Positions 1,063 through 24,845 of a DNA stretch of 64,000 nt are shown here, piece by piece (the stretch's first letter is position 1; each line of letters begins with the position of its first letter). The position numbers were made by a program, and so were the translations under genes. This DNA is from Prescottella equi. Its GTDB lineage: Bacteria; Actinomycetota; Actinomycetes; Mycobacteriales; Mycobacteriaceae. The notes below the pieces were generated by a model. The model was not told the DNA's origin. It saw only the letters and a program-made list of their open reading frames with translations, and searched no databases. The DNA lies in contig NZ_JAIVAH010000033.1 of NCBI RefSeq assembly GCF_020171745.1, positions 1-64,000 on the forward strand, read 5' to 3'.

Positions 1063-4000
1063 ATGCAGAATTCGATACTCAGGCGCTGTGCCGCCCCTGT
1101 AACAGGCGCAGCGCTCGTGGCAGGCGTGATGTTGGTCGGTGCCCCGGCCAATGCGGTGACCGCCACGGTCAGCTTCAAGAACACCTGCAAGGCGAGCGCC
1201 ATCATCACGGTGGACAAGACCGCCGATACGGGAATGACGATCGATGCGCCTGCATCTGTGGCTGCGGGCGCCACGTTTACCTACCGGATACAGCCAAGTG
1301 CGGGGTCGATCCCTGACAAGGAGTCAATCGCGACGACGGGCGACATCGTCCGAATGAAGGTCGACTACGCGATACCGGACAACGCCACCTTCGTCAGTGC
1401 TGCCGTGGTACCCGGCACGGCGACCGCCAACATCGACAACGCCAGCGGCGGTGACCTGAGTGTGTTGCGAGTCAACGACTCGGGTTCGGCCGACGCCAAC
1501 GGCAGCATCTTGCGGCTGTCCGGAAGCAATCAGCTGATCGCAAACAGTCCATCGACCGGGACGAGCGATGCAGGCATGCGCGTGCGCAAGACGAAGACCG
1601 ATCTCAGTGGAAACCCCACCGGCGGTGACACATGGTTCCGCCTGCCCGCGATCGACGTCACGATCACCGCGAACTCGCCTGGTGTGATCCAGCCGAAGGT
1701 GCGCACATCCGGGTCGGCCGCCACCTACGGAAACGATCAGAACTACTACACGTTCCAGGCGAAGTCGAGCGCCGGAAACGCGCCGACCAGGTGTACACCG
1801 CGTGACGGCAAGAGCAGTGCACTGAACGCCGGTGCCGGCCCGCTCGCAACGATCAACGTCGTTGCCGCGCAAGTGTCGACCACGACGACCCTGACGGCTC
1901 CGGGCACCGCGGAGACCGGTGCCCCGGTCACGCTGGCCGCCGATGTCGCGCCCAACAACGCGACGGGCTCGGTGCAGTTCAAGGACAACGGCACCGACAT
2001 CGGTTCGCCGGTGACGGTGGCCGGTGGCACTGCCAGCCTGGACCACACTTTCACCACGGCCGGTTCGCATTCGATCACCGCGGTGTTCACCGCGACCGGT
2101 AACTTCACCGGATCGACGTCGGCGGCTTCGGTCGTGGCCGTGACCGACCCGACTCCGGTCGACGTCGAGACCACGCTGGGGCTGACGGTTCCGCAGAACG
2201 CGGAGACCGGCGCGGTTGTCGATCTGACTGCCAACGTGACCCCGTCGAACGCGCAGGGCACGGTCCAGTTCAAGGACAACGGCACCAACATCGGATCCCT
2301 CGTGACGGTGGCGGCCGGCGCGGCGACGCTGTCCCACCCGTTCGCGGCGGCCGGTTCGCACAGCATCACTGCCGAGTTCACGGGCGCACCCGGCTTCACG
2401 GGTTCGGTCGCAGGTGCCCAGACCGTGACGGTCACCGACCCGGTGGTCCCGGATGTGGAGACCACCACGACGGTGTCGGCTCCGGCCAATGCCGCGACGG
2501 GCGCCTCGATCACGCTCACGGCCAACGTCGCACCCATCAACGCGTCCGGCACGGTCCAGTTCACCGCTAACGGCTCCGACATCGGTTCGCCCGCGACGGT
2601 GTCGAACGGTGTTGCGACGCTGCAGCACACGTTCTCCGCCGCCGGTGTCCAGGCGATCGGCGCCGTGTTCTCGGGTGACGCCGGATTCGCCGGCTCGACC
2701 GCGACGCAGACGCAAAACGTCACCGTGACGGATTCGGATGTCGCCACCACGACGTCGCTGACTGTTCCGCAGAACGCTGAGACGGGAACGGCCGTCGATC
2801 TGACGGCGAATGTGCTGCCTGCCGGCGCGACTGGCGCGGTGCAGTTCCAGGACAACGGCACGGATATCGGCGATGCCGTGACGGTGTCGAACGGTGTCGC
2901 AACCCTGTCGCATGCCTTCACGACGGCAGGTTCGCACAGCATCACCGCCAGCTTCAGCGGCGGTGCGGGGTTTGCGGGTTCGGCGGCTTCGGCTCAGACC
3001 GTGACGGTCACCGACCCGGCGGTTCCGGACACCGAGACCACGACGACGGTGACGGTCCCTGACACGGCTGAGACCGGTGCTTCGGTGACGCTGTCCGCAG
3101 CGGTGGCTCCGGTCCCGACTGGCGGCACGGTGCAGTTCAAGGTTGCCGGTGCCAACGTCGGCACTCCGGTGAACGTCGACGGATCGGGCCACGCGACGAT
3201 GCCGTACACGTTCAATGCAGCTGGCGCATACGATGTTTCGGCCGTGTACTCGGGTACCGCCGGGTTCGCGACGTCGACCGCGTCCGCGCAGTCGGTGACG
3301 GTGTCGGATCCGGTTGTGCCGGATACACAGACGGCGACGACGGTGTCGGTGCCAGCGACTGCTGAGACGGGTGCGTCGGTGATGCTGTCGGCTGAGGTGG
3401 CTCCGGTTCCGTCCGGTGGCACGGTGCAGTTCAAGGTTGCCGGTGCCAACGTCGGCACTCCGGTGAACGTCAATGCCTCGGGTAACGCGACAATGCCGTA
3501 CACGTTCAATGCGGCTGGTTCGTTCGCGGTGACGGCGGAGTTCTCGGGTACCAGCGGGTTCGCGGCCTCGACTGCGGGTGCGCAGACCGTGACGGTGTCC
3601 GATCCGGCTCCGTCGGATGTGGAGACGGCTCTGGAGCTGCAGGTTCCGGCTACGGCCGAGACCGGTGCCGACGTGGATCTGACCGCGACGGTGGCTCCGT
3701 CAAATGCTGCTGGCACGGTACAGTTCTCGGTGGACGGTAGCCCGGTCGGTGCTCCGGTGACGGTGTCCGGTGGTACCGCGACGCTGTCCTACCCGTTCGC
3801 TTCGGCCGGCACGAAGTCGGTGACCGCGGTGTTCACCGGTGGTGCAGGCTTCTTGAACTCGGCTGCGGGTGCGCAGTCGGTGACGGTCTCCGATCCGATC
3901 CCGGTCGATGTCGTCACCACGACGATGCTGAACGTGCCGGGTAACGCCAAGACCGGTGAGGCCGAGAACCTGTACGCCACCGTGTTCAACTCCACGACCT

Positions 4001-4578
4001 CGGAGGTCGTGCCGAGCGGCGGCACCGTCGAGTTCTTCGACGGCGCAACGTCGCTCGGAACCGCTCCGGTGGTCGACGGTGTCGCCACGCTGTCGCACAC
4101 CTTCACCACCGCCGGTACCCATAGCATCACCGCGACATTCAGTGGTGCCACCGGGTTCGCCGGATCCGATGCCGCGGCCAAGCAGGTCTCGGTCACGGTC
4201 CCGACGCCGGTGGACGTCGAGACGGCCACCGTCCTGACGGTGCCGGCCAACGCGGCCAAGGGTGCAGCGGTGCAGCTGTCGGTTCAGGTGACCGGTGCCG
4301 GTAATGCGCCGGTCAGTGGTACCGTCCAGTTCTTCGACGGGACCACCCCGATCGGGGACGCGGTGCAGGTTGTCAACGGCGTCGCGGTTCTGAACCACAC
4401 CTTCACCACGGCGGGTGCCCACAGCATCCACGCGGTGTTCAGCGGTGGTCAGGGCGTCGCGGACTCGACCTCGGGTTCGCAGACGATCCAGGTCACCGGC
4501 GGCAGCACGGGCGGGGGCCTGGGCAGCCTGAGCGGAATCTTGGGGGGCCTGCTCGGCAACCTGAACTTCGGCTCGTAA
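1063..4578 (+). CDS. Secreted Ig-like repeat protein 1 (N-domain class I)
   Basis: Exported repetitive protein of 1171 residues. A Sec signal peptide covers about residues 1-31 (ends GAPANA). Residues 32-270 form an N-terminal domain with two cysteines, one in FKNTCKAS and one in TRCTPRD, a probable disulfide. From about residue 272 come nine Ig-like domains of about 90 residues (Big_3-type; each has TLTVP near its start, GTVQFKDNG in the middle and HTFTTAGSHSITAVF near its end). The repeats contain no cysteine. The eighth and ninth use EFFDG/QFFDG instead of QFKDNG. The tail is Gly/Leu-rich and ends NLNFGS. There is no LPXTG signal or C-terminal membrane helix. AAGGAAG six bases before the ATG supports the start. 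The N-domain is shared only with the protein at 9812. Function unknown; a surface adhesin or stalk is plausible. Confidence 0.9.
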   Translation: MQNSILRRCAAPVTGAALVAGVMLVGAPANAVTATVSFKNTCKASAIITVDKTADTGMTIDAPASVAAGATFTYRIQPSAGSIPDKESIATTGDIVRMKVDYAIPDNATFVSAAVVPGTATANIDNASGGDLSVLRVNDSGSADANGSILRLSGSNQLIANSPSTGTSDAGMRVRKTKTDLSGNPTGGDTWFRLPAIDVTITANSPGVIQPKVRTSGSAATYGNDQNYYTFQAKSSAGNAPTRCTPRDGKSSALNAGAGPLATINVVAAQVSTTTTLTAPGTAETGAPVTLAADVAPNNATGSVQFKDNGTDIGSPVTVAGGTASLDHTFTTAGSHSITAVFTATGNFTGSTSAASVVAVTDPTPVDVETTLGLTVPQNAETGAVVDLTANVTPSNAQGTVQFKDNGTNIGSLVTVAAGAATLSHPFAAAGSHSITAEFTGAPGFTGSVAGAQTVTVTDPVVPDVETTTTVSAPANAATGASITLTANVAPINASGTVQFTANGSDIGSPATVSNGVATLQHTFSAAGVQAIGAVFSGDAGFAGSTATQTQNVTVTDSDVATTTSLTVPQNAETGTAVDLTANVLPAGATGAVQFQDNGTDIGDAVTVSNGVATLSHAFTTAGSHSITASFSGGAGFAGSAASAQTVTVTDPAVPDTETTTTVTVPDTAETGASVTLSAAVAPVPTGGTVQFKVAGANVGTPVNVDGSGHATMPYTFNAAGAYDVSAVYSGTAGFATSTASAQSVTVSDPVVPDTQTATTVSVPATAETGASVMLSAEVAPVPSGGTVQFKVAGANVGTPVNVNASGNATMPYTFNAAGSFAVTAEFSGTSGFAASTAGAQTVTVSDPAPSDVETALELQVPATAETGADVDLTATVAPSNAAGTVQFSVDGSPVGAPVTVSGGTATLSYPFASAGTKSVTAVFTGGAGFLNSAAGAQSVTVSDPIPVDVVTTTMLNVPGNAKTGEAENLYATVFNSTTSEVVPSGGTVEFFDGATSLGTAPVVDGVATLSHTFTTAGTHSITATFSGATGFAGSDAAAKQVSVTVPTPVDVETATVLTVPANAAKGAAVQLSVQVTGAGNAPVSGTVQFFDGTTPIGDAVQVVNGVAVLNHTFTTAGAHSIHAVFSGGQGVADSTSGSQTIQVTGGSTGGGLGSLSGILGGLLGNLNFGS

Positions 4579-4594
4579 GTAGCACCTGACGGTT

Positions 4595-4634
4595 GGGTGA
4601 GGTCCCGCCTCCACACGGAGGCGGGGCCTCACCC
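4595..4634 (+). terminator. Hairpin terminator after Ig gene 1
   Basis: GGGTGAGGTCCCGCCTCC, loop ACAC, GGAGGCGGGGCCTCACCC: an 18-bp stem with one G-T wobble, 17 bp after the stop. No T-run follows, which is common for actinobacterial terminators. Confidence 0.7.
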
Positions 4635-4727
4635 GATGTCGTTCATCGATGAGGTGGGTCGGCTGAACACCTCTGCGGTTCACGAGTTCTGTTGCGTAGG
4701 AGTAGAACAGGGCGGCTACGAACTCTG

Positions 4728-4775: not shown

Positions 4776-4840
4776 AAGCCTACGACCCCCCAGCGTAGTG
4801 TAGGGCGGGCCACAGACGTTTCCGGCCAATCGCCCGCGAC

Positions 4841-4862
4841 TTGGACGTTTGTCCGATAGAGT
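4841..4862 (+). promoter_or_regulatory. Array motif upstream of Ig gene 2
   Basis: TTGGAC-GTTT-GTCC-GATAGAGT, the cleanest example of the array motif. GGAC and GTCC form a short palindrome, and GATAGA resembles a -10 hexamer. It lies about 160 bp before the start codon. A GGAGTCGGGCT element follows at 4883. The stretch 4635-5022 holds nothing else that looks functional beyond these and the fossil tail. Confidence 0.55.
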
Positions 4863-5022: not shown

Positions 5023-8000
5023 ATGGTTGGCAGGGGATTGCGCCGAGTAGTCGGCGGAATAAGTGTTTTCGCGATGGCCGCGGGATTCATGGCAATGACG
5101 GGCGCCGAGGCGGTGGGTGCTGTCGTCAATTCGCCGGTGTCCTGGTCGGATGGCAACAGCTCGTTCACACGTAGCGTCAGCAATACGACGCCGGCCGAGG
5201 GCGAGGTCGTCACGGTCTCGACCAAGTTCGAGCGAGGCATTTCCGTCGAGTATGTCCAGGCAGTCAAGGACATTCATCCGACGTGCCTGACGTATGTAGA
5301 CGGCTCCGCGAAGGTCGGGGGTTCGACCATCGGGGTCGAGAGTATGGCCGCCGACTTCGTACGAGTCGCAGGTAGCTGGGATGTCCGACCGTACGTCGAA
5401 CCCAAATCGCGAACGTTCTCGTTCTCGTATCTCGTAGGTGCGAATTGCGATCGGAATACTCCGCTGATGACGACCATGCATTACTCGGGAAGTCTCGGCA
5501 GCGGCACGTACCAGGACAAGGGTCCGACCATTTCCGTCCTGAAGACCACCACGACATCGCTGGCGTCGGTTGCCACACCGATGCTGACCGGGCAGGCGGT
5601 CACGCTGACCGCGACGGTCACCAACGGCGCACAGGGCAATCCAGTCGAGTTCTACGACGGATCGACGAAGCTCGGTGAGGGCACGCTGAACGCCGTGGGA
5701 GTCGGCACGTTCGTGTGGACGCCGACGACGGTGGGCGCACGGAGCCTGACTGCGAAATTCCCGCGAACGACGCTCGCAAACGTGTCGCAGTCGGCAGCGC
5801 AGAACGTGCAGGTGACTGCCCCCGTGTCCACCGGCGTCTCGGTGACGGCCCCGGGGACCGCAGTGACGGGCACGCCGGTGACACTGTCGGCATCGGTGAC
5901 CCCGCCGAATGCCGCGGGTACGGTGCAGTTCAAGGACAATGGGACGAACATTGGTAATCCGGTGACGGTCGCGGGCGGCCAGGCGATACTGCCGCACACG
6001 TTCACGACCACGGGCGTGCACAGCATCACCGCCGACTTCATCGCAGGGTCAGGGTTCGTGAACTCGTCGGCGCCGGCACAGACGGTGACGGTGAACGCCC
6101 CCACATCGACAACGCTGCAGGCGCCGACATCCGCGACGACGGGCACACCGGTGACGCTGTCGGCGTCGGTGACTCCGACGAATGCCGCGGGTACGGTGCA
6201 GTTCAAGGACAACGGAACGGACATCGGTACTCCGGTCGCTGTTGCCAGCGGCGCGGCGAGCCTGCCGCACACGTTCACGACCGGCGGCGCGCACGCCATC
6301 ACCGCGGTGTTCACCGGTAACGCGGGATTCGCGGGATCGACCGCGCCCGCACAGACCGTGAACGTGAGCGTTCCCGACGTTGCTACCTCGACGACGCTGA
6401 CGGTGCCGCAGACTGCGCAGACCAATCAGTCCGTCACGCTGTCCGCAACTGTTGCGCCGACGCCCACGTCCGGCACGGTCCAGTTCAAGGACGGAAGCAC
6501 GAACATCGGTGCACCGGTTGCCCTGGTGAACGGTGTTGCGACGCTGCCGCACTCCTTCGCGTCGGCCGGTTCGCCGTCGATCACTGCAGAGTTCAGCGGG
6601 TCGACCGGCTTCGCGTCGTCGGTCTCCGCGGCGCAGTCCGTGACCGTCACGGAACCGGATGTCGAGACGTCGCTGTCGGTGACGGCGCCGGCTTCGGCTA
6701 CGACCGGTTCGTCGGTGGATCTGACGGCGACGGTGTCGCCGTCGGGCGCGCAGGGCACGGTGCAGTTCAAGGTCAACGGCAGCCCGGTGGGTGCGCCGCA
6801 GACGGTGTCCGGTGGCGCGGCAAGCCTGCCGTACACGTTCAACGCGGCTGGTTCGTTCGCGGTGACGGCCGAGTTCGCCGGTGCTGCCGGGTTCACGAAC
6901 GCAACGGCTGCTGCTCAGGCCGTGACGGTGTCCGTTCCGGATGCGGTCACGTCGTTGACGCTGGATGTTCCGGCTACCGCGGTCACCGGTACCTCGGTGA
7001 ACCTGACGGCGGCGGTCTCGCCGTCCGGTGCACAGGGCGCCGTGCAGTTCACGGACGGCGGCACTCCGATCGGTGCTCCGGTTCCGGTGGTGAATGGTGT
7101 TGCGACGCTGCCGTACACGTTCAGTGGTTCGGGTTCGCACAGCATCGGTGCATCGTTCACGGGTGCTCCCGGCTTCGCGGATGCTTCTGCGACGTCGCCG
7201 GGGTCGATCGAGGTCAGTGATCCGGATCAGCAGACGACGACCACGGTGTCGGTGCCGGCTACAGCCCAGACGGGCACGGCGGTGACGCTGGAGGCGACGG
7301 TCGCTCCGGTTCCGACCGGTGGCACTGTGCAGTTCAAGGTCGGCGGCGTCGATGTCGGTGCGCCGCAGACGGTTTCGGTTGGTGCGGCGAGCCTGCCGTG
7401 GACGTTCAATGCCGCGGGTTCGTTCGAGGTGACGGCCGTGTACTCGGGTGTGACCGGTTTCGAGGGTTCGACGTCGGCTCCACAGTCGGTGACGGTGACC
7501 GTTCCGGATGTGGTGACGTCCTTGACGCTGGATGTTCCGGCGACGGCGGTCACGGGCGCCTCGGTGAACCTGACGGCGGCGGTCTCGCCGTCCGGTGCGC
7601 AGGGCGCCGTGCAGTTCACGGACGGCGGCACTCCGATCGGTGCTCCGGTTCCGGTGGTGAATGGTGTTGCGACGCTGCCGTACACGTTCAGTGGTTCGGG
7701 TTCGCACAGCATCGGTGCATCGTTCACCGGCGGTCCGGGCTTCGCAGATGCTTCTGCGACGTCGCCAGCATCCATCGTGGTCAGTGACCCGGATCAGCAG
7801 ACGACGACCGCGGTGACGGTGCCGGGTACGGCCCAGACGGGCACGGTGGTCACGCTGGAAGCGACCGTTGCCCCGGCTCCGACCGGTGGCACGGTGCAGT
7901 TCAAGGTCGACGGCAACCCGGTGGGTGCGCCGCAGGCGGTCTCGGGCGGTGCGGCGAGCCTGCCGTGGACGTTCGACGCTGCGGGTTCGTTCGCTGTGAC

Positions 8001-9591
8001 GGCCGTGTTCTCGGGTGCGACCGGTTTCGAGGGTTCGACGTCGGCTCCTCAGTCGGTGACGGTGTCGGCTCCGGACGTCACGACGTCGCTGTCGGTGACT
8101 GCTCCCGCTACGGCCACCACCGGTGAGTCGGTGGACTTCTCGGCGACGGTGTCGCCGGCGAATGCGCAGGGCTCGGTGCAGTTCATGATCGGTGGCGTGG
8201 CCGTCGGTGCTCCGCAGACTGTGTCCGGTGGTGCGGCCTCGCTGCCGCACATCTTCAACGCCGCCGGTTCGTTCGCGGTGACGGCGGAGTTCTCGGGTGC
8301 TGCCGGGTTCACGGATTCGGTTGCGTCGGCGCAGAACGTGACCGTGTCGGTTCCGGACCAGCAGACGTCACTGACGGTCGAGGTTCCGGGTTCGGCGGCG
8401 ACCGGTTCGTCGGTGAACCTGGTGGCGAATCTGACGCCGCCGAATGCTCAGGGCACGGTGCAGTTCACCGACAACGGCACTCCGATCGGTGCTCCGGCTC
8501 TGGTGGTGAATGGTGTTGCGACGCTGCCGCACACGTTTGCAGCGGGTTCGCACAGCATCGGTGCTTCGTTCACGGGTGGTCCGGGCTTCGCGGATGCGTC
8601 GGCGACCGTCCCGGGATCGATCGTGGTGTCCGACCCAGATCAGCAGACGTCGCTGTCGGTGACTGCGCCGGCCACGGCCACGACCGGTGATTCGGTGGAC
8701 TTCTCGGCGACGGTGTCGCCGGCGAATGCGCAGGGCACGGTGCAGTTCAAGATCGGTGGCGTGGCCGTCGGTGCTCCGCAGACCGTGTCCGCTGGTGCGG
8801 CGAGCCTGTCGCACACGTTCAACACGGCTGGCACGTTCGCGGTGACGGCTGAGTTCACCGGTGCTGCCGGGTTCACGAACTCGACTGCGGGTGCGCAAAC
8901 CGTGACGGTCACGGACCCGGCCCCGGTCGATGTCGCGACGTCAACTCTGGTCGGTGCTCCGGGTTCGGCGACGACGGGTGTGGAGACGACACTGTCGGTG
9001 ACGGTGCAGGCGCAGACGGGCACGGCGGTGCCGACCGGTTCGGTGCAGTTCCGTGAGAACGGAAGCCCGATCGGGTCGCCGGTGACGCTGGTGAACGGCG
9101 CCGCCTCGATCGGCCACACGTTCACTTCGGTGGGCACGCGCCAGGTTTCCGCGGTGTACACCGCGGACGCCGGGTTCGTGGGGTCGACGTCGGTCGACCG
9201 TCCGGTGACGGTGTCCGCTCCGAATCCGTCGGATGTGGTGTCGTCGGTGGTGATCGCGTCGACGCAGGCGCCGACGGCGGGCACGCCATACGTGTTGAAG
9301 GCGCAGGTGATCGGTGCGGCGTCGTTGCCGGGCACGGTGCAGTTCTTCGACGGTGGCGTGGCGATCGGTGCTCCGGTGCCGGTGGTCGACGGCTTCGCCG
9401 AGATCACGCACACCTTCACCCAGAGTGGGCCGCGTCTGATTCATGCGGTGTACTCGGGTGGTACGGGGGTGGCGGGGTCGACGTCGGAGACCCAGACCCT
9501 CGAGGTGGCGCAGTCCGGCGGCGGTGACACGGGTGGGTCGCTGGACTTCGGATCGCTCGGCAGCCTGAGCGGGTTGAGGTTCGGTTCCTGA
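5023..9591 (+). CDS. Secreted Ig-like repeat protein 2 (N-domain class II), largest of the array
   Basis: A 1522-residue exported protein. The signal peptide covers about residues 1-33 (GLRRVVGGISVFAMAAGF core). Residues 34-172 form a DUF11-like domain with KDIHPTCLTYVDGSAKV and a second cysteine in VGANCDRN. The first Ig domain is a divergent class-specific type (VEFYDG, WTPTTVGARSL). Thirteen more Ig-like domains follow, without cysteines. Domains of the VTSLTLDVPATAV and QTTT types alternate as a duplicated pair between about 6934 and 8067. The last domain uses VQFFDGG. The tail ends LSGLRFGS. The ATG is preceded by AAGGGGAAG. Hairpins bound the gene on both sides, so it is probably monocistronic. 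Function unknown; domain number suggests a long extended surface filament or adhesin. Confidence 0.9.
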   Translation: MVGRGLRRVVGGISVFAMAAGFMAMTGAEAVGAVVNSPVSWSDGNSSFTRSVSNTTPAEGEVVTVSTKFERGISVEYVQAVKDIHPTCLTYVDGSAKVGGSTIGVESMAADFVRVAGSWDVRPYVEPKSRTFSFSYLVGANCDRNTPLMTTMHYSGSLGSGTYQDKGPTISVLKTTTTSLASVATPMLTGQAVTLTATVTNGAQGNPVEFYDGSTKLGEGTLNAVGVGTFVWTPTTVGARSLTAKFPRTTLANVSQSAAQNVQVTAPVSTGVSVTAPGTAVTGTPVTLSASVTPPNAAGTVQFKDNGTNIGNPVTVAGGQAILPHTFTTTGVHSITADFIAGSGFVNSSAPAQTVTVNAPTSTTLQAPTSATTGTPVTLSASVTPTNAAGTVQFKDNGTDIGTPVAVASGAASLPHTFTTGGAHAITAVFTGNAGFAGSTAPAQTVNVSVPDVATSTTLTVPQTAQTNQSVTLSATVAPTPTSGTVQFKDGSTNIGAPVALVNGVATLPHSFASAGSPSITAEFSGSTGFASSVSAAQSVTVTEPDVETSLSVTAPASATTGSSVDLTATVSPSGAQGTVQFKVNGSPVGAPQTVSGGAASLPYTFNAAGSFAVTAEFAGAAGFTNATAAAQAVTVSVPDAVTSLTLDVPATAVTGTSVNLTAAVSPSGAQGAVQFTDGGTPIGAPVPVVNGVATLPYTFSGSGSHSIGASFTGAPGFADASATSPGSIEVSDPDQQTTTTVSVPATAQTGTAVTLEATVAPVPTGGTVQFKVGGVDVGAPQTVSVGAASLPWTFNAAGSFEVTAVYSGVTGFEGSTSAPQSVTVTVPDVVTSLTLDVPATAVTGASVNLTAAVSPSGAQGAVQFTDGGTPIGAPVPVVNGVATLPYTFSGSGSHSIGASFTGGPGFADASATSPASIVVSDPDQQTTTAVTVPGTAQTGTVVTLEATVAPAPTGGTVQFKVDGNPVGAPQAVSGGAASLPWTFDAAGSFAVTAVFSGATGFEGSTSAPQSVTVSAPDVTTSLSVTAPATATTGESVDFSATVSPANAQGSVQFMIGGVAVGAPQTVSGGAASLPHIFNAAGSFAVTAEFSGAAGFTDSVASAQNVTVSVPDQQTSLTVEVPGSAATGSSVNLVANLTPPNAQGTVQFTDNGTPIGAPALVVNGVATLPHTFAAGSHSIGASFTGGPGFADASATVPGSIVVSDPDQQTSLSVTAPATATTGDSVDFSATVSPANAQGTVQFKIGGVAVGAPQTVSAGAASLSHTFNTAGTFAVTAEFTGAAGFTNSTAGAQTVTVTDPAPVDVATSTLVGAPGSATTGVETTLSVTVQAQTGTAVPTGSVQFRENGSPIGSPVTLVNGAASIGHTFTSVGTRQVSAVYTADAGFVGSTSVDRPVTVSAPNPSDVVSSVVIASTQAPTAGTPYVLKAQVIGAASLPGTVQFFDGGVAIGAPVPVVDGFAEITHTFTQSGPRLIHAVYSGGTGVAGSTSETQTLEVAQSGGGDTGGSLDFGSLGSLSGLRFGS
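6934..8067 (+). repeat. Tandem two-Ig-domain duplication (period about 567 bp)
   Basis: The segment starting at 6934 (GTTCCGGATGCGGTCACGTC) recurs at 7501 with few substitutions, a period of 567 bp or 189 codons, which is exactly two Ig domains. Further diverged copies of the domain types follow to about 8935. In-frame duplication or unequal crossing-over within the gene is the simple explanation. Confidence 0.8.
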
Positions 9592-9699: not shown

Positions 9700-9721
9700 T
9701 TGGACACTTGTCCTGCAAAAC
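9700..9721 (+). promoter_or_regulatory. Array motif upstream of Ig gene 3
   Basis: TTGGAC-ACTT-GTCC-TGCAAAAC. It keeps the GGAC/GTCC palindrome but has a weaker downstream block. Just after it, AAAACTG and CAGTTTT form a 7-bp inverted repeat around ten bases (about 9717-9740), a possible second operator. Confidence 0.45.
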
Positions 9722-14283: not shown

Positions 14284-14305
14284 TTGGACGTTTGTTCTAT
14301 AAAGT
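14284..14305 (+). promoter_or_regulatory. Array motif upstream of Ig gene 5
   Basis: TTGGAC-GTTT-GTTC-TATAAAGT. The first eleven bases are identical to the 4841 copy. TATAAA here is a good -10 candidate. A GGAGTCGGGCCG element follows 53 bp later at 14359. Confidence 0.55.
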
Positions 14306-15741: not shown

Positions 15742-15763
15742 CTGGACGCACGTCCGATACAGT
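15742..15763 (+). promoter_or_regulatory. Array motif upstream of the fossil start and Ig gene 6
   Basis: CTGGAC-GCAC-GTCC-GATACAGT, with GGAGTCGGGCCG 53 bp further at 15816. The same spacing is seen before Ig genes 5 and 9, so this is a complete leader that now precedes a broken gene start. Confidence 0.55.
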
Positions 15764-16090: not shown

Positions 16091-17548
16091 ATGTCTGACA
16101 GGAACATCCGTCGCGTTGTCGGGGGACTGAGTGCCTTCGCGGTTGCTGCCGGATTCGCAGCCACCGCCGGAGTCGGTGTGGCCGGTGCGGCGTCGCAATC
16201 GGTGAATTGGTCTGACGGTAGTAGCAAGTTCACTCGGACGATCAGCGACGTGAATCCCAAAGAGGGGGACATCATCACGTCGAAGACTGCTTTCCAGCGC
16301 AGTAGCGGCGCTGTCGTGGAGTACATCTATGCCGTCAAGGACCTGCATCCGACGTGCCTGACGTACGTCGAGGGTTCGGCGAAGGTGGACGGCTCGCCGC
16401 GTGGTCTCGAGAGCAAGGGGGCTGATTTCGCTCGTGTAGAGGGAAGCTCGATCGAGTGGCCGGTGCGTGGGATCGCGAATCCGAATACGCGCACGTTCGA
16501 ATTCTCGTATCGGGTCGGTGCGGACTGTGCCCGGGACGTGGCGCTGATGACGACGATGCACTACAGCGGATCGCTCGGTAGCGGCACCTACAGCAACAAG
16601 GGGCCGACGATCACGGTCAGCAAGAACGTCACGGCGACGACTTTGGCCGCAGTGTCCGGAGCTCAGGTTGGGCAGGTCACCAACCTCGCCGCGACGGTGA
16701 CTGGTGGCACTCAAGGTGACACCGTCGACTTCCTCAGCGGTGGCAGCAAGATCGGTTCTGGCACTCTCAACGCTAACGGCACTGCGACCCTCGCATGGAC
16801 GCCCACGACAAAGGGCACGCAGCAAATCATGGCGAAATTCCTTGCGACGTCCAAGGCCAACGCCTCGCAGTCGGATCCGCAGAGCGTCGATGTGGCGCAG
16901 GTTGATGCCGTTTCGACCACCACGATCGCCGACGTCACGGGCGCGCAGGTGGGGCGGGCATCCGGCCTCGAAGTGACCGTTTCACCGGCCGCCGCAGGTG
17001 GCAGCGTGCAGTTCAAGGACGGTGCCACACTGCTCGCCGATGTACCCGTCAACGGCAGCGGCAAGGCCACGTACCAGTGGACTCCGACGGTCGAAGGCTC
17101 CCACTCGATCTCCGCGGTGTTCTCCGGCCGCGACGGTGTAGCCGGGTCGACCGGGACGAAGACGGTGAACGTTGCTGCGAAGCCGGTCCAGAACACCGAT
17201 TCCACCACCGAAATCTCGGTCGGCAACGGTCAGGCCGGTGTGGCTCAGACGATTTCGGCTCAGGTGACCAATGGTGCTGGTGGCACAGTGACGTTCAAGG
17301 ACGGCAACACCGTCATCGGGACGGCGACGGTCGACGGCAACGGACGGGCCTCGATCTCGTGGACGCCTGCCGTCGAGGGTCAGCGCACCGTCCGCGCCGA
17401 ATACTCGGGAGCCGGCACCGTCAACGCCTCCTCCGACGCGATGTCGGTCGTGATTGCGGCCCCGAACGGCGGCGGTGACGGCGGGACTGATGGTGGCACC
17501 GGCAGCCTCGCTTCGCTCGGTGGCGGCTTCGGCTCGCTCGGCGGCTAA
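16091..17548 (+). CDS. Secreted Ig-like repeat protein 6 (N-domain class II, divergent Ig domains)
   Basis: A 485-residue exported protein. The ATG at 16091 follows GAGAGGAAA; the signal peptide ends GVAGA near residue 33. Residues 34-175 form the class II DUF11-like domain (SDVNPKEGDIITSK, KDLHPTCLTYVEGSAKV, VGADCARDVALMTTM), nearly identical to those at 17662 and 19867. The three Ig domains are all of the divergent kind seen only as the first Ig of other class II proteins: they end each unit with WTPTVEG-like segments rather than HTFTTAG. The tail ends GGFGSLGG, one of two tails in the array not ending FGS. It is probably transcribed from the leader of the fossil gene upstream. Confidence 0.88.
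   Translation: MSDRNIRRVVGGLSAFAVAAGFAATAGVGVAGAASQSVNWSDGSSKFTRTISDVNPKEGDIITSKTAFQRSSGAVVEYIYAVKDLHPTCLTYVEGSAKVDGSPRGLESKGADFARVEGSSIEWPVRGIANPNTRTFEFSYRVGADCARDVALMTTMHYSGSLGSGTYSNKGPTITVSKNVTATTLAAVSGAQVGQVTNLAATVTGGTQGDTVDFLSGGSKIGSGTLNANGTATLAWTPTTKGTQQIMAKFLATSKANASQSDPQSVDVAQVDAVSTTTIADVTGAQVGRASGLEVTVSPAAAGGSVQFKDGATLLADVPVNGSGKATYQWTPTVEGSHSISAVFSGRDGVAGSTGTKTVNVAAKPVQNTDSTTEISVGNGQAGVAQTISAQVTNGAGGTVTFKDGNTVIGTATVDGNGRASISWTPAVEGQRTVRAEYSGAGTVNASSDAMSVVIAAPNGGGDGGTDGGTGSLASLGGGFGSLGG
16199..16569 (+). repeat. 371-bp near-identical block, copy 1
   Basis: It encodes the class II N-domain from SVNWSDGSS to MHYSG. It is colinear and nearly identical, by eye, with 17767-18137 and 19975-20345, while sequence on both sides diverges. 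Recent duplication or gene conversion is inferred. Confidence 0.85.
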
Positions 17549-17661: not shown

Positions 17662-19674
17662 ATGTCTGACAGAAGAATTTGCTGGCTGGCGGTGGGTGCT
17701 GCCAGTGCGGTTGCTGTGGGTTTTTTGGTGACGGTGGGTGTGGGTTCGGCGGGTGCTGCAGAGCAGTCGGTGAATTGGTCTGACGGTAGTAGCAAGTTCA
17801 CTCGGACGATCAGCGACGTGAATCCCAAAGAGGGGGACGTCATCACGTCGAAGACTGCGTTTCAGCGCAGTAGCGGCGCTGTCGTGGAGTACATCTATGC
17901 CGTCAAGGATCTGCATCCGACGTGCCTGACGTACGTCGAGGGTTCGGCGAAGGTGGACGGCTCGCCGCGTGGCCTCGAGAGCAAGGGGGCTGATTTCGCT
18001 CGTGTCGAGGGAAGCTCGATCGAGTGGCCTGTGCGTGGGATCGCGAATCCGAATACGCGCACGTTCGAATTCTCGTATCGGGTCGGTGCGGACTGTGCCC
18101 GGGACGTGGCGCTGATGACGACGATGCACTACAGCGGGTCGTTGGGTTCGGGAACGTACTCGGACCAGGGTCCGGCGATCACGGTCAACAAGAACGTCAC
18201 GACCACAACGCTGGCGGCGGTGTCGGGTCCGGTGACGGCGGGTCAGTCGGCAACGTTGAGCGCCACGGTAACCGGTGGCGCGCAGGGTGATTCGGTCGAC
18301 TTCTACGACGGCGCCACGAAGCTGGGTTCGGCAACGTTGAATGCGTCCGGAGTGGCGACGTACGCGTGGACGTCCACGTCGCCGGGCGCGCACCCGTTGC
18401 AGGTGAAGTATCTGGGCACCGCGAAGGCGAATCCGTCGGAGTCGACGCAGCAGTCGGTGTCGGTGGTGGTTCCGACGTCGATGACGGTGTCGGCGCCGTC
18501 CACGGCGCTGACGGGCACCGCAGTCACACTGACCGCCAACGTGACGCCGTCGAGCGCGTCGGGCACGGTGCAGTTCAAGGACAACGGTACGAACATTGGT
18601 TCGCCGCAGCCGGTGTCGAACGGCGCGGCGTCGATGCAGTACACGTTCACGACGGCCGGCAATCACAACATCACGGGAACCTTCACGTCCGGTTCCGGCT
18701 TCGCGGAAGCGACGTCGGCGCCACAGCCTGTGGCAGTCAGCGCTCCTGCCGTGCCGACGACACTCGCAATGCAGATGCCCTCGACCGTCGAAACCGGAAC
18801 CGCGGTGACGTTGACGGCCAATCTCACGCCGGCCAATGCCTCCGGAAAGGTGCAGTTCAAGGATGGCGGCACCGACATCGGCTCGTTGGTCACCGTGTCG
18901 GCCGGCAAGGCGCAACTCAGCCACACCTTCACTACCGCGGGCAACCACTCCATCTCCGCCGTGTTCACCGGTGACCCGGGATTCCTCGGATCGACCGCGA
19001 CCGCGAAGCAGGTGATCGCGACCGACCCGCAGGTTCCCGACGTCCAGACCACCACGGCGCTGACGGCCCCGGCGACCGCCCAGACGGGGGCGGCGGTGGC
19101 GCTGAGCGCCACGGTTACTCCCGCCAACGCCTCCGGGACCGTGCAGTTCAAGGACGGCAGTGACCCGATCGGATCGCCGGTCGACGTGGTGAACGGTACT
19201 GCTGCCCTGCTGTACACATTCCAGGCCTCCGGATCGCATTCGATCACCGCGGTCTTCACCGCCGGTCCAGGGTTCGCCAGTTCCACCTCGTCGGCACAGT
19301 CGGTTCAGGTGTCGGACCCGGCGCCCGGCGACGTGGTGACGTCGACGGCACTGACCGTTCCGGGCACCGCCACGGTCGGGCAGCAGGCCAATCTGTCGGC
19401 CCGGGTCACCGGCAACGGGTCGCTGACCGGCACGGTCCAGTTCTACGACGGGTCGACGCCCCTCGGGACCGGTGTCCAGTTGGAGAACGGTGTGGCGGTC
19501 CTCCCGCACACCTTCGCCACGGCAGGTCCGCACGAGATCACGGCGGTCTACTCCGGTGGCGCAGGGTCTCAGGCGTCCACGTCGGCCCCGCAGACCGTCC
19601 AGGTGGCCGCCTCCGGCGGAGGTGACGGGGGCGGCACGGGCTCGCTCGGCTCGCTGAGCGGGTTCGGTTCCTGA
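17662..19674 (+). CDS. Secreted Ig-like repeat protein 7 (N-domain class II)
   Basis: A 670-residue exported protein with AAGGGG before the ATG. The signal peptide (MSDRRICWLAVGAASAVAVG) ends GSAGA near residue 32. The class II DUF11-like domain spans about 33-172 with cysteines in HPTCLTYV and GADCARD. Five Ig-like domains follow: the first is the class-specific divergent type (VDFYDGATKLG, WTSTSPG), three are standard (VQFKDNG, HTFTTAGNHSI), and the last is the terminal type (VQFYDGS). The tail is GGGTGSLGSLSGFGS. The first Ig domain and N-domain are closely similar to those of the protein at 19867, whose gene lies directly downstream; the two look like recent duplicates that differ in Ig number. 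Confidence 0.9.
   Translation: MSDRRICWLAVGAASAVAVGFLVTVGVGSAGAAEQSVNWSDGSSKFTRTISDVNPKEGDVITSKTAFQRSSGAVVEYIYAVKDLHPTCLTYVEGSAKVDGSPRGLESKGADFARVEGSSIEWPVRGIANPNTRTFEFSYRVGADCARDVALMTTMHYSGSLGSGTYSDQGPAITVNKNVTTTTLAAVSGPVTAGQSATLSATVTGGAQGDSVDFYDGATKLGSATLNASGVATYAWTSTSPGAHPLQVKYLGTAKANPSESTQQSVSVVVPTSMTVSAPSTALTGTAVTLTANVTPSSASGTVQFKDNGTNIGSPQPVSNGAASMQYTFTTAGNHNITGTFTSGSGFAEATSAPQPVAVSAPAVPTTLAMQMPSTVETGTAVTLTANLTPANASGKVQFKDGGTDIGSLVTVSAGKAQLSHTFTTAGNHSISAVFTGDPGFLGSTATAKQVIATDPQVPDVQTTTALTAPATAQTGAAVALSATVTPANASGTVQFKDGSDPIGSPVDVVNGTAALLYTFQASGSHSITAVFTAGPGFASSTSSAQSVQVSDPAPGDVVTSTALTVPGTATVGQQANLSARVTGNGSLTGTVQFYDGSTPLGTGVQLENGVAVLPHTFATAGPHEITAVYSGGAGSQASTSAPQTVQVAASGGGDGGGTGSLGSLSGFGS
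17767..18137 (+). repeat. 371-bp near-identical block, copy 2
   Basis: Same block as 16199-16569, encoding the class II N-domain. Only a few single-base differences are visible between the copies. Confidence 0.85.
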
Positions 19675-19716: not shown

Positions 19717-19866
19717 ACAGGCGATCACATAGTCGTTCAACAAGTTCGAAGCTTCCGCGCCCGGGGTCGGGCCGGCGTGGGAGGTGTCACCCGAGGCGAT
19801 CACTCGAACGGTCGGGATTTCGAAATCCGATGGGCCGAAGAGTGCTCTGGAGAAGGAGAAAGCGAA

Positions 19867-22800
19867 ATGGCCCGATCGAGAACGCGGACAATTGTGGCGG
19901 CGGGAGCTGCCACCGCGATTGCTGCGGGTTTTGTGGTGACGGTGGGGGTGGGTTCGGCCGGTGCGGCGGCGCAATCAGTGAGTTGGTCTGACGGTAGTAG
20001 CAAGTTCACTCGGACGATCAGCGACGTGAATCCCAAAGAGGGGGACATCATCACGTCGAAGACTGCTTTCCAGCGGAGTAGCGGTGCTGTCGTGGAGTAC
20101 ATCTATGCCGTCAAGGACCTGCATCCGACGTGCCTGACGTATGTCGAGGGTTCGGCGAAGGTGGACGGCTCGTCGCGTGGTCTCGAGAGCAAGGGGGCTG
20201 ATTTCGCTCGTGTAGAGGGAAGTTCGATCGAGTGGCCGGTGCGTGGGATAGCGAATCCGAATACGCGTACGTTCGAATTCTCATATCGGGTCGGGGCGGA
20301 TTGTGCCCGTGATGTGGCGTTGATGACGGCGATGCATTACAGCGGGTCGCTCGGTTCTGGTGAGTACAACGACAAGGGTCCGGCGATCACGGTCTCGAAG
20401 AACGTCACGACGACCACGCTGGCGGCGGTGTCGAGTCCGGTGATGACGGGCCAGTCGGTGACCTTGAGCGCGACGGTGACCGGTGGCACGCAGGGTGATC
20501 CGGTCGACTTCTACGACGGGGTCACGAAGCTGGGCTCGGGAACCCTGAATGCTTCCGGTATCGCGACGTTCGCGTGGACGTCTACAACGCAGGGTTCGCA
20601 TTCGCTGCAGGCGAAGTATCTGGCCACCGCGAAGGCGAACCCGTCGGATTCGGCGTCGCAGTCGGTGTCGGTGGTAGTCCCGACATCGATGACGGTGTCG
20701 GCGCCGTCGACGGCTTTGACGGGTACCGCGGTGACGTTGTCGGCGAACGTGACTCCGTCGAATGCTTCAGGGACGGTGCAGTTCAAGGACAACGGTGCGA
20801 ACATCGGTTCGCCGGTGGCGGTGTCGAACGGTGCGGCGACGATGCAGCACACGTTCACGGCAGCCGGAAATCGCAGCATCACAGCAGAGTTCATCGGCGC
20901 GGGCTTCGTGAACTCGTCGGCTGCGCCGAAGACCGTGTCGGTCAGCGTCCCTGATCAGGCGACCACGACGACACTGACCGTTCCGCCGACCGCGGAAACG
21001 GATCAGCAGGTCACGCTCACCGCGAACCTCGATCCCACGAACGCCTCCGGAACGGTGCAGTTCAAGGACAACGGTGTGAACATCGGTTCGCCGCAGTCGG
21101 TGTCGAACGGTGCCGCCACGTTGCAGCACACCTTCACCACCGCCGGTAGCCACAGCATCACCGCGGACTTCAGCGGCGCCGGCTTCGTGAGCTCGTCGGC
21201 TCCCGCGCAGACGGTCAACGTCAACGTCCCCGACCAGGCGACCACGACAACCCTGACCGTCCCGCAGACCGCGCAGACCGGTACCGAAGTGACCCTGTCG
21301 GCCTCCGTCGCACCGAATCCCGGTGGCGGCACCGTGCAGTTCAAGGACAACGGGACGGATCTCGGTGCGCCGGTGCCGGTCTCGAACGGCGCCGCGCAAC
21401 TGCCGCACACCTTCTCGTCCGCAGGACAGCACGGCATCACGGCCGTGTTCTCCGGTGCCCCCGGGTTCACGACCTCGAGCGCCGCGACCCAGACGGTGAC
21501 TGTCAGCGTCCCCGATCAGGCGACCGCCACGACGCTGACCGTTCCGCCGACCGCGGAAACGAATCAGCAGGTCACCCTCACCGCGAACCTCGACCCGACG
21601 AACGCGTCCGGCACCGTCCAGTTCAAGGACAATGGCAACAACATCGGCTCCGCGGCTCAGGTGACCAATGGTGTCGCCACCCTGCCGCACTCGTTCACCG
21701 CGGCCGGCAGCCACAGCGTCACGGCGGTGTTCACGGGCAACGCGGGCTTCTCGAACTCCTCGGCGACGGCGCAGACCGTCAACGTGACCAACCCTGTGGT
21801 CCCGGACGCCCAGACCACCACCACGCTGGGAGTGCCGGCGCAGGTGGTGAAGGGAACGACCACGACGCTCAGCGCGACACTCACCCCGGCAAACGCGTCC
21901 GGCACCGTCCAGTTCCTGGACGGCCAGACGCCGATCGGCGGCCCGGCCACCGTGACGAACGGAATTGCTTCCGTCCAGCATTCGTTCGCGACCTCCGGTA
22001 ACCACAGCATCAACGCCGTGTTCACCGGCGGCCCGGGCTTCTTGGGCTCGACGGCGACGGCCAAGTCGGTCATGGTGACCGAGCCCGCGGTCGTCGACGT
22101 GGCGACCACGACCACGCTCACCGCTCCGTCGACCGCGGAGACCGGCCAGCAGGTCACGCTCACGGCGAACCTGAATCCGGCCAACGCTGCGGGCACGGTG
22201 CAGTTCAAGGACGGCGCCACCAACATCGGTGGCCCGGTGACCGTCACGAACGGCACGGCGACGACGCAGACGACATTCTCGGCGGCCGGCAGCCACAGCA
22301 TCACCGCGGTGTTCGCCGGTAGCACCGGCTTCAAGGCATCGACGTCGTCGGCGCAGACGGTGACGGTCAACGCTCCTGTGGTGCAGACGTCGCTGACGCT
22401 GTCGGCGCCGTCGGACGCGCAGACCGGATCCGAGGTCACCTTCACCGCGACGGTGGCGCCCGCGAATGCGTCCGGCACGGTGCAGTTCACTGTCGACGGC
22501 ACCAACGTCAGTGGCCCCGTCACGGTCTCGAACGGTGTGGCGACACTGCCGCACCCCTTCACCGCCGCGGGACCGCACACCGTCGGTGCAGCGTTCACCG
22601 GTGCGCCGGGCTTCACGAATGCGACGGCAACGACACAGACCGTCCAGGTGTCGACCCCGACCCCGGAGGACGTCGTGACGACGACCGCAGCCACCGTCCC
22701 CGGGGCGGCGACCGTCGGGCAGCAGGTGACGCTGTCGGCGAACGTTTCCGGTGGCACCAACCTGCCCGGCACCGTGCAGTTCTTCGACGGTGACACCCCG

Positions 22801-23055
22801 ATCAGCGGCAACGTCGACCTCGTCGACGGCGTCGCGACGGCCCAGCACACCTTCACCACGACCGGCGCGCACGTGATCACCGCGCGCTACTCCGGCGGCC
22901 AGGGCGCGAAGGCGTCGATCTCGCCGGCGCAGACGGTCCAGGTGGCCCCGGCCGACGACGGCGGCGGAGACGGTGGCGGCACCGGCAGTCTGGGCTCGCT
23001 CGGCAACCTCTTCGGTTCCCTGAGTGGAGTGGGCCGTTCGGGATCCGGATCCTGA
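19867..23055 (+). CDS. Secreted Ig-like repeat protein 8 (N-domain class II)
   Basis: About 1062 residues. The frame opens upstream at 19777, but the ATG at 19867 has GGAGAAGGAGAAAG before it and starts a normal signal peptide (MARSRTRTIVAAGAATAIAAG, ending GSAGA). The class II N-domain follows, almost identical to those of the two preceding genes. There are nine Ig-like domains: the first divergent, seven standard, and a terminal one (VQFFDGD). Several standard domains begin TLTVPPTAET and look like internal duplicates. The tail ends GVGRSGSGS rather than FGS, although NLFGSLSG lies shortly before, as if the tail had been extended. The leader (19717-19866) has a GGGTCGGGCCG element at 19764, but I see no clear GGAC/GTCC motif. 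Confidence 0.9.
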   Translation: MARSRTRTIVAAGAATAIAAGFVVTVGVGSAGAAAQSVSWSDGSSKFTRTISDVNPKEGDIITSKTAFQRSSGAVVEYIYAVKDLHPTCLTYVEGSAKVDGSSRGLESKGADFARVEGSSIEWPVRGIANPNTRTFEFSYRVGADCARDVALMTAMHYSGSLGSGEYNDKGPAITVSKNVTTTTLAAVSSPVMTGQSVTLSATVTGGTQGDPVDFYDGVTKLGSGTLNASGIATFAWTSTTQGSHSLQAKYLATAKANPSDSASQSVSVVVPTSMTVSAPSTALTGTAVTLSANVTPSNASGTVQFKDNGANIGSPVAVSNGAATMQHTFTAAGNRSITAEFIGAGFVNSSAAPKTVSVSVPDQATTTTLTVPPTAETDQQVTLTANLDPTNASGTVQFKDNGVNIGSPQSVSNGAATLQHTFTTAGSHSITADFSGAGFVSSSAPAQTVNVNVPDQATTTTLTVPQTAQTGTEVTLSASVAPNPGGGTVQFKDNGTDLGAPVPVSNGAAQLPHTFSSAGQHGITAVFSGAPGFTTSSAATQTVTVSVPDQATATTLTVPPTAETNQQVTLTANLDPTNASGTVQFKDNGNNIGSAAQVTNGVATLPHSFTAAGSHSVTAVFTGNAGFSNSSATAQTVNVTNPVVPDAQTTTTLGVPAQVVKGTTTTLSATLTPANASGTVQFLDGQTPIGGPATVTNGIASVQHSFATSGNHSINAVFTGGPGFLGSTATAKSVMVTEPAVVDVATTTTLTAPSTAETGQQVTLTANLNPANAAGTVQFKDGATNIGGPVTVTNGTATTQTTFSAAGSHSITAVFAGSTGFKASTSSAQTVTVNAPVVQTSLTLSAPSDAQTGSEVTFTATVAPANASGTVQFTVDGTNVSGPVTVSNGVATLPHPFTAAGPHTVGAAFTGAPGFTNATATTQTVQVSTPTPEDVVTTTAATVPGAATVGQQVTLSANVSGGTNLPGTVQFFDGDTPISGNVDLVDGVATAQHTFTTTGAHVITARYSGGQGAKASISPAQTVQVAPADDGGGDGGGTGSLGSLGNLFGSLSGVGRSGSGS
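19975..20345 (+). repeat. 371-bp near-identical block, copy 3
   Basis: Third copy of the block at 16199 and 17767, the most diverged of the three but still with only scattered substitutions. Confidence 0.85.
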
Positions 23056-23333: not shown

Positions 23334-24845
23334 GTGACCCGATCCATCACCCGACGACTGGTGTCCACAGTCGTTGCGGGGGCCATGGCCGCGAGCGTGG
23401 TCGCTGCCGGGCAGATTCTGTGGGGCGTCGGAAGTGCAACGGCCGCACCGGTCTCGCAGACGATCACCACCAGCAACATCGTTGCGACCAAGACGGTGAG
23501 CCCAGCGGTCGCGCATCCCGGCGAGACGGTGACGTCCACCATCACGTTCAAGACGAACGGCGGGGTCGACCGCTACCTGAACAACCTGACCGACCATCCC
23601 CCGGCTGGGTACCAGTTGCAGAGCGTGGCCGGCAACGTCTGGCGGGGCGCCGGAGCGAACCTGAACAATCCGTCGGTGTTCGACGGTGCGGCCGTACAGA
23701 ATCCGACTACCGGTGCGGTGACCGTGAAGTGGACAGACGCCTTCCTTGCGCTGGGACTGATTCCCGGCCTCGGGAACGGCGACATGCACCCGACCCTGAC
23801 ATTCACGTACAAGGTGCCCGACAATGCCCAGCCGGGCCAGCGCAGCGCCGGGATGAGTTTCGACATCTACTCGTTCGCGACATATCAGTCGTTCAATCCC
23901 ATGGCGGGACTGGCTGTTTCGGTCGATCCGCTGGCCACGACCACCACCGTGTCGGCGCCGTCGAGCGCGATCACCGGGGCGCCGGTGACTCTGTCTGCGA
24001 ACGTGACGCCTGCGAACGCGCCCGGCACGGTGCAGTTCCAGGAGAACGGCACGAACATCGGCTCGCCGGTTCAGGTTTCGGGTGGAGTCGCTTCGATGCA
24101 ACACACCTTCCAGGCGACGGGCTCGCGAAGCATCTCCGCGACCTTCACCGGTTCCACCTCGACGTACGCCACGTCGAACGCGCCGGCCCAGACCGTCTCG
24201 GTGACCGCGCCCGACGCCCAGACGTCGACGTCGCTGACCGTGCCGACCGATGCCAAGACCGGCACGTCGGTGTTGCTCACGGCGAATGTGACGCCCGCCA
24301 ACGCGACCGGCTCGGTGCAGTTCCGTGACAACGGTGCCGACATCGGCACCCCGATCCAGGTCTCCGGGGGCGCCGCGAATCTGCAGCACACCTTCACGAC
24401 GGCGGGCACGCACAACATCGTGGCGGTGTTCACTGCGGGCAACGGCTTCGTCGGTTCCACCTCGCCGGTGCGCGCCGTGGCCGTGACCGAGCCGGCCCCG
24501 AGCGATGTCCCCACGACGACTACGCTCACTGTCCCCGGGACTGCGACGACGGGCCAGCCCGTGCAACTCTCGGTCCAGGTGGCCGGGGCGGCGACCCTGC
24601 CCGGCACGGTGCAGTTCTACGACGGCAACACCGTGGTCGGGACGCCCCTCGTTCTGGTCGGAGGCCAGGCGTCGGTGACCCACACGTTCACTACACCGGG
24701 CGCGCACCAGATCGTGGCCGTGTACTCCGGCGGTCCGGGCGTTACCGGGTCGTCCTCGGTACCGCAGCCCGTGCAGGTCACGAACGCGGACGGCACCGGC
24801 AGCGCCGGGTCGCTCGGTGGCGGCACCCCGATGTTCGGGTCCTGA
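23334..24845 (+). CDS. Secreted Ig-like repeat protein 9 (N-domain class III)
   Basis: About 503 residues. I chose the GTG at 23334, which follows GAGAGGAG and begins VTRSITRRLVSTVVAG, a clear signal peptide ending GSATA; the frame extends upstream to 23286 without support. The class III N-domain (NIVATKTVSP, LTDHPPAGYQLQSV, LTFTYKVPDNAQPG, MSFDIYSFATY) matches that of the protein at 14410, but the cysteine pair there is absent here. Three Ig-like domains follow, the last of the terminal type (VQFYDGN). The tail is GSLGGGTPMFGS, very like GSLGGGSPIFGS of its paralogue. It is the last gene of the array; a hairpin separates it from the acyltransferase. Confidence 0.9.
   Translation: MTRSITRRLVSTVVAGAMAASVVAAGQILWGVGSATAAPVSQTITTSNIVATKTVSPAVAHPGETVTSTITFKTNGGVDRYLNNLTDHPPAGYQLQSVAGNVWRGAGANLNNPSVFDGAAVQNPTTGAVTVKWTDAFLALGLIPGLGNGDMHPTLTFTYKVPDNAQPGQRSAGMSFDIYSFATYQSFNPMAGLAVSVDPLATTTTVSAPSSAITGAPVTLSANVTPANAPGTVQFQENGTNIGSPVQVSGGVASMQHTFQATGSRSISATFTGSTSTYATSNAPAQTVSVTAPDAQTSTSLTVPTDAKTGTSVLLTANVTPANATGSVQFRDNGADIGTPIQVSGGAANLQHTFTTAGTHNIVAVFTAGNGFVGSTSPVRAVAVTEPAPSDVPTTTTLTVPGTATTGQPVQLSVQVAGAATLPGTVQFYDGNTVVGTPLVLVGGQASVTHTFTTPGAHQIVAVYSGGPGVTGSSSVPQPVQVTNADGTGSAGSLGGGTPMFGS

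Follow-up and report, generated by a model that had tools for sequence, protein, structure and literature searches.

Fibrillar adhesin-like (FA-like) proteins are exported and combine an N-terminal functional domain with a stalk of repeated domains and a C-terminal base (PMC8286594, PMC9210967), and nearly half of them carry no known anchor (PMC8286594). Here we describe a nine-gene array of comparable proteins in a window of DNA (the whole stretch analysed: 64,000 nucleotides of Prescottella equi contig NZ_JAIVAH010000033.1, assembly GCF_020171745.1, positions 1 to 64,000 of the forward strand). Its products consist of an export signal, a head, a stalk of immunoglobulin (Ig)-like domains and a C-terminal tail that in most of them ends in Phe-Gly-Ser (FGS). 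The array is real and conserved, and as a type its products behave like FA-like proteins whose base has not been described before; its interest lies in the tail more than in the array itself. Our preferred reading, held with slightly better than even confidence, is that these are exported surface fibrils of head, stalk and base, in which the FGS tail serves as base at or in the mycomembrane, with O-mycoloylation of tail serines as the most likely chemistry.

Export, repeated stalk domains and an N-terminal head are all found in the array proteins; they differ in that no recognised adhesive domain scores over cut-off and no established anchor is present. Periscope proteins also differ between relatives in stalk length, which would set how far the head projects (PMC8201768), but their repeats are highly identical (PMC9210967), whereas the tandem DNA arrays found here match at 67-81%. 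Across the pooled Ig family the number of Ig domains runs from 1 to 14 per protein and differs between species. Periscope proteins carry sortase anchors; the array proteins have no sortase motif.

In their C-terminus the array proteins resemble the Cmt1/MytC substrates PorH, PorB and ProtX (PMC5310785, PMC11066868, PMC11927696, PMC12632848), which likewise have a Ser at the extreme C-terminus in a Ser/Gly-rich context. PorH of Corynebacterium glutamicum is mycoloylated at Ser56 within a C-terminal NFSS, ProtX is mycoloylated at its penultimate Ser37, and PorB has an NFSS end too (PMC5310785); the PorB sites are Ser-7 and Ser-98 (PMC11066868), and Ser-98 of the mature protein would be the penultimate Ser of that NFSS. 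Mycoloylation sites are described as flexible and Ser/Gly-rich, without a strict consensus (PMC11066868). PorA is mycoloylated in vitro by MytC alone (PMC11927696), and mytC orthologues occur in Nocardia, Gordonia and Rhodococcus, not all of them active in C. glutamicum (PMC5310785). Both NFSS and the xFGS of the array place a Phe two residues before the last. The array proteins are large and of Sec type, whereas PorH, PorA and ProtX are very small and have no signal peptide. We take Cmt1 and MytC to be the same enzyme, as PMC11066868 and PMC11927696 together suggest. Among the three mycolyltransferase-type proteins of the genome that we searched, two (L215 and L216) have Cmt1 as their best solved relative (E 2.7e-81 and 2.7e-65) and the third has Ag85C, so that MytC/Cmt1-type enzymes, as judged by sequence similarity, are encoded in the same genome as the array. 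Our literature searches, for which most subscription papers were out of reach, found, among the titles listed, nothing on these Ig proteins in Rhodococcus and, beyond reviews, no work on an FGS tail or on mycoloylation in Rhodococcus.

The array proteins share an Ig stalk and a C-terminal tail

The nine genes, all on the plus strand, are as follows.

1063..4578, plus strand: Ig protein 1; class I head 1147-1890; 9 Big_3_5; tail ..LLGNLNFGS
5023..9591, plus strand: Ig protein 2; class II head 5131-5571; 14 Big_3_5; tail ..LSGLRFGS
9812..12118, plus strand: Ig protein 3; class I head 9899-10642; 5 Big_3_5; tail ..GTGSLSFGS
12133..14220, plus strand: Ig protein 4; class IV head (divergent class II) 12277-12747; 5 Big_3_5; tail ..GSLAGLPFGS
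14410..15669, plus strand: Ig protein 5; class III head 14530-15024; 2 Big_3_5; tail ..GSPIFGS
16091..17548, plus strand: Ig protein 6; class II head 16187-16660; 3 Big_3_5; variant tail ..GFGSLGG
17662..19674, plus strand: Ig protein 7; class II head 17755-18228; 5 Big_3_5; tail ..GSLSGFGS
19867..23055, plus strand: Ig protein 8; class II head 19963-20433; 9 Big_3_5; variant tail ..GRSGSGS
23334..24845, plus strand: Ig protein 9 (GTG start); class III head 23454-23942; 3 Big_3_5; tail ..GTPMFGS

A first-pass annotation of this DNA had described nine consecutive same-strand genes for exported Ig-repeat proteins, and this description stands. All nine open reading frames (ORFs) were recovered where it had placed them, and Pfam Big_3_5 (PF16640) scored above cut-off in every protein (E 4e-29 to 2.6e-205), with 9, 14, 5, 5, 2, 3, 5, 9 and 3 stretches, numbers identical to its Ig counts. 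An N-terminal export signal was judged present by eye in nine of nine, and the seven FGS-ended proteins also satisfy a simple computed export-signal rule. NCBIfam gave no family over cut-off for any of the nine, and hence none of the sorting-domain models that it contains matches the tail.

Seven of the nine proteins end in FGS, and the remaining two finish GSLGG and GSGS. In a set of 221 Ig-protein ends, distinct by their last 200 residues but related in sequence and retaining a few truncated or out-of-frame ends (one homologue survey used the best 80 of 86 matches), 107 have an exact FGS C-terminus, and 204 carry GS followed by L, A, V, I, M, F or S inside the last 25 residues. By comparison, FGS ends only 7 of 3597 control ORFs, which are the other ORFs of the same loci, spurious frames included. 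Four of these seven are class I or II heads fused to the tail without Ig domains, which suggests that head plus tail form the core of these proteins and that the Ig domains are a spacer of variable length; of the other three, one is exported (L239 locus) and two are further cases (L170, L177). In their last 25 residues the 107 FGS tails have a median Gly plus Ser content of 48% and at least two Ser, as in a Ser/Gly-rich site. The Gly and Ser codons of the tail vary, hence its conservation acts at the protein level.

No LPxTG-type motif (LPxT[GAS] in the last 60 residues) occurs in the 221 Ig ends and no transmembrane (TM)-like stretch in the 107 FGS ends, and anchoring of FGS-tailed proteins by either of these two means is rejected. 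The absence of sortase signals and C-terminal helices noted before thus extends to this wider set. The accompanying claim of no known anchor is literally true but overlooked the strongly conserved C-terminal tail, which is the best anchor candidate.

The tail occurs on unrelated exported proteins

The tail was searched for genome-wide as TTC-GGN-TCN-stop, a pattern that admits TTC alone for Phe and TCN alone for Ser and whose in-frame use was examined in the P. equi genome and in genome G303. In the 5.49 Mb of the P. equi assembly (46 contigs), TTCGGNTCNTRR gave 48 matches against 32 for the reversed control, 25 of them with a true stop; 14 of these are in-frame ends of ORFs of at least 150 aa, three end short ORFs and eight end shorter ORFs or none. 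The 14 comprise the seven array proteins, one further Ig protein, a PhoX alkaline phosphatase, a pair of small secreted proteins encoded in tandem and three more exported proteins of small size. All 14 pass the simple export-signal rule, which ten of ten hand-chosen cytosolic background proteins fail. PhoX (L248:49-1509), a Tat-type protein, has the C-terminus ..GFSFGSLDLPFGS, the same tail as in the Ig proteins, and the tandem secreted proteins (178 and 183 aa, L249:1504-2598, minus strand) both finish TGSLGSLSFGS and match no Pfam family. Elsewhere in this genome, Ig genes lie at four further loci (L001 on contig C11, L002 on C12, L003 on C29 and L004 on C4), and a class II head joined to the tail without Ig domains lies at L010 on C11. 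In G303, 18 of 30 examined loci encode Ig proteins, 12 of which end GSxGNxFGS, and two further loci encode what by eye are propeller-like repeat proteins.

Three signal-less ORFs of 63, 51 and 30 aa (L246, L252 and L253) also end in FGS and recall small mycomembrane peptides. We rejected them as PorA/PorH-like micropeptides: L246 has no match in the other 13 of the 14 genomes sampled for the genus, and NCBIfam returned nothing over cut-off for any of the three.

Pattern counts were summed per genus over 149 of 201 genomes in 11 genera, the 52 left out including ratios near 1 to 2 (g68, g73). Tail matches exceed those of a control pattern of different composition in Prescottella (166/18) and in the genera labelled g79 (92/12), g64 (95/18), g5 (94/26) and g80 (244/69). 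The excess is weak in g84 (57/29), g6 (39/18) and g3 (94/67), and there is no clear excess in g4 (153/119), g2 (66/66) or g63 (39/46); g2, at a ratio of 1.0, is the better control. The MytC loop is reported to have been shown in no Mycobacterium enzyme (PMC5310785), which agrees with the lack of excess in g2 if that genus is Mycobacterium, as it appears to be.

The heads fall into two types

The four N-terminal classes of the first-pass annotation survive as clusters with the right members, but profile comparison reduces them to two head types. Class I heads (1063, 9812) are mutually 53% identical, class II heads (5023, 16091, 17662, 19867) 63-96% and class III heads (14410, 23334) 50%; the heads of proteins 7 and 8 are 96% and 94% identical to that of protein 6, and class II heads have two invariant cysteines. 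A class II query detects the class IV head (12133) at E 2.6e-12 and 36% identity, and classes II and III are homologous in profile comparison (probability 96.8, E 2.3e-10). As far as profiles reach, the two types are therefore a DUF11-like head (II, III, IV) and the class I head, with no profile connection between them.

No Pfam or NCBIfam family over cut-off was seen for the heads, and sequence searches of solved structures with class I and class II heads found no relative at E up to 1. DUF11 (PF01345) reaches 17.3 bits in the class III protein 9, below its cut-off of 24.6, and by E-value matches 18 of 32 class II/IV members (best E 7.2e-5). PF22089, the DIP2116-like N-terminal domain (cut-off 27 bits), reaches at best 15.3 bits among five class I proteins and matches 3 of 24 class I members at E up to 0.1 (best 0.016). 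The head folds resemble adhesin and pilin sandwiches, and the class I fold resembles the DIP2116-like domain over most of its length. Solved structure 3lso, from a putative membrane-anchored protein of C. diphtheriae, is presumably DIP2116; in place of a membrane anchor, class I proteins have an Ig stalk and the FGS tail. From the beta-sandwiches of DUF11, pilins and adhesins (EbpB, Sgo0707, RrgB) the array heads differ in the sub-threshold DUF11 score of protein 9 and in the two invariant cysteines of class II.

The tail as a possible base in the mycomembrane

In the mechanism that we favour, the signal peptide would direct export, after which the tail would be recognised and would hold the protein at or in the mycomembrane. 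The head would be a DUF11-like or DIP2116-like beta-sandwich that may bind ligands, the stalk a variable number of Ig domains and the base a flexible Gly/Ser/Leu tail, mostly FGS-ended; with the tail as base, stalk length would set the distance of the head from the surface. The most likely chemistry would be O-mycoloylation of tail serines by a MytC/Cmt1-type mycoloyltransferase, comparable to that at the extreme C-terminus of PorH and ProtX. The FGS end is Ser/Gly-rich and, like NFSS, has Phe as the third residue from its C-terminus, which makes it a reasonable acyl acceptor or recognition signal. The tail is common to Ig fibrils and unrelated exported proteins, and this reading makes a sharp prediction, namely that truncation of the tail or mutation of its F, G or S abolishes retention.

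Several observations weigh against this reading. The Ser of FGS is the last residue and not the penultimate one; Cmt1 has internal O-mycoloylation sites (PMC11066868) and, with no strict consensus at such sites, the known biology does not need an FGS rule; and PorH with S56A alone remains surface exposed (PMC12632848, a 2025 preprint). Within our own data, 114 of the 221 Ig ends are not FGS (LGG 29, FGF 6, GSS 6, LFG 4 and others), and at least two further FGS ORFs of the P. equi genome (in L001 and L010) lie outside the 14, missed because only TCN serines were searched. The small signal-less ORF of L246 has no relative in the 13 other genomes of the genus. Genus g63, which is presumably Corynebacterium and in which mycoloylation would be expected, shows no FGS excess, and g5 shows one although class II heads occur in few of its genomes. 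The class I head matches 3lso at a Foldseek TM-score of 0.48 only. The tail could also be an export or chaperone signal, or simply a flexible end.

A wider proposal, which we put forward only tentatively, is that across the Rhodococcus-Prescottella-Dietzia part of the mycolata the GSL...FGS tail acts as a sorting signal of general use and undescribed kind. MytC-type enzymes or a dedicated receptor would read it, and it would direct large Sec- and Tat-exported proteins, among them Ig fibrils and phosphatases, to the mycomembrane. If true, it would be the counterpart of LPxTG or of the lipobox for this membrane. The tail would also offer a way to predict from sequence which proteins these bacteria carry on their surface.

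Instead of accepting an acyl chain, the tail might be a binding or assembly motif whose non-covalent partner is a mycomembrane protein, arabinogalactan or the adjoining subunit, giving a coat or polymer. An exact Phe tripeptide in 107 of 221 ends is more than a plain acyl acceptor should need, given that no strict consensus is described (PMC11066868), and the LGG and FGF ends lack a terminal Ser altogether. Docking between subunits sits poorly with the same tail on the unrelated PhoX, and we regard this alternative as rather doubtful. Less probable still, in our judgement unlikely, is that the proteins are secreted and loosely held and act in the medium or biofilm matrix, the tail aiding passage through the mycomembrane or shielding the C-terminus. 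This would agree with the absence of LPxTG motifs and TM-like stretches, and PhoX and the small secreted proteins, which share the FGS end, might be soluble. Against it, homologous class I heads followed by a single Ig domain have a C-terminal TM helix and an Arg/Lys-rich end replacing the FGS tail at four loci (L143, L146, L152 and L155, R. ruber included), which suggests that attachment is a common need. Attachment through the tail is what we continue to favour.

Transcription and an upstream palindrome

When 70-80 bases past each stop codon were folded, a strong hairpin was found after eight of the nine genes (z -3.6 to -7.4). Genes 3 and 4 are separated by 14 bp without a hairpin and are probably co-transcribed; the hairpins together with this run-on suggest that the array probably forms about eight transcription units. 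A terminator scan by tool was at chance level (9 against 9.3), and a sigma-70 promoter scan of 640-20000 gave no sites against 1.4 in shuffles.

4579..4648, plus strand: terminator-like hairpin after gene 1, z -7.4 (genes 2, 4, 5, 6, 7, 8 and 9: z -3.6 to -6.1)
816..832, plus strand: palindrome TGGACnnnnGTCC upstream of gene 1; differs from the extended form at 2 positions
4842..4858, plus strand: extended motif TGGACnnnnGTCCnATA upstream of gene 2, 0 mismatches
9701..9717, plus strand: palindrome upstream of gene 3; differs from the extended form at 2 positions
14285..14301, plus strand: palindrome upstream of gene 5, 1 mismatch
15743..15759, plus strand: palindrome upstream of gene 6, 0 mismatches

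The palindrome TGGACnnnnGTCC thus lies upstream of five array genes (1, 2, 3, 5 and 6), often followed by a TATA-like stretch, and also upstream of homologues. With up to two mismatches, the extended form has 9 matches in the window against 3.0 expected, a number that none of 100 shuffles reached; because a palindrome can be counted on both strands, these are seven places, one of them outside the array at 36517. GGACnnnnGTCC by itself shows no enrichment across the window: 7 matches occur where 4.4 are expected, a number attained by 18 of 100 shuffles. The short form occurs in 36 of 221 pooled upstream stretches of Ig genes, for which a crude rule assigned the start codons, whereas mononucleotide shuffles give 3.2; it often lies near -180, and other GC-rich palindromes give similar raw counts, for example 38 for CGGCnnnGCCG. 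The palindrome looks like a repressor operator.

Genomic context and conservation of the array

The array lies between a thioesterase gene and a plsC-type gene, close to a cluster for the arabinogalactan-mycolate envelope.

63..638, minus strand: 4HBT thioesterase, left flank, syntenic in relatives
24916..25674, plus strand: PlsC-type acyltransferase, right flank
25709-26581: HAD, after the PlsC gene
26657-28873, minus strand: amidase-LGFP
29082-30833: SpoIID-LGFP
30973-31731: TipA-like MerR regulator, flanked by SpoIID-LGFP and glf, on the border of the arabinogalactan cluster
31741..53015, plus strand: arabinogalactan-mycolate cluster with GLF, GlfT2, UbiA, two mycolyltransferase-type esterases (one with LGFP), DUF732, a cutinase and a luciferase-like protein

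Further cluster proteins occupy the places of FadD32, Pks13 and AccD4, and an ORF without a Pfam hit that of aftB, the names being given by position after the M. tuberculosis cluster.

Across relatives the site is syntenic, with differing numbers of Ig genes. The order thioesterase-array-plsC is kept with two Ig genes in genome G208 (L095, L091), four in P. subtropica (L147) and about eight in R. xishaensis (overlapping loci L137 and L126), against nine here. At R. erythropolis-type loci (L113, L182, L184, L185) the Ig genes still adjoin plsC. The R. oryzae and R. maanshanensis loci (L138, L160) have HAD and plsC on either side of a class I head that has the tail and lacks Ig domains.

The first-pass annotation had proposed a surface layer or adhesin system of the mycomembrane. 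The export signals, the head-stalk-tail order, the nearby mycolate cluster and the class I homologues with a TM helix and basic end support a surface system of the mycolate envelope. Stalks of 1-14 Ig domains with different heads would be more in keeping with FA-like proteins than with an S-layer protein that forms a lattice. Large exported proteins from a multi-gene array close to cell-wall genes might still suggest an S-layer-like lattice, but stalk length, heads, transcription units (about eight) and gene number (only two at the G208 site) all vary, which makes it a weak and highly improbable rival.

In P. defluvii SampleD3_15 (G202, an assembly 79% complete), several Ig or class I genes show short frames, and there is one internal stop, reflecting either decay or sequencing error.

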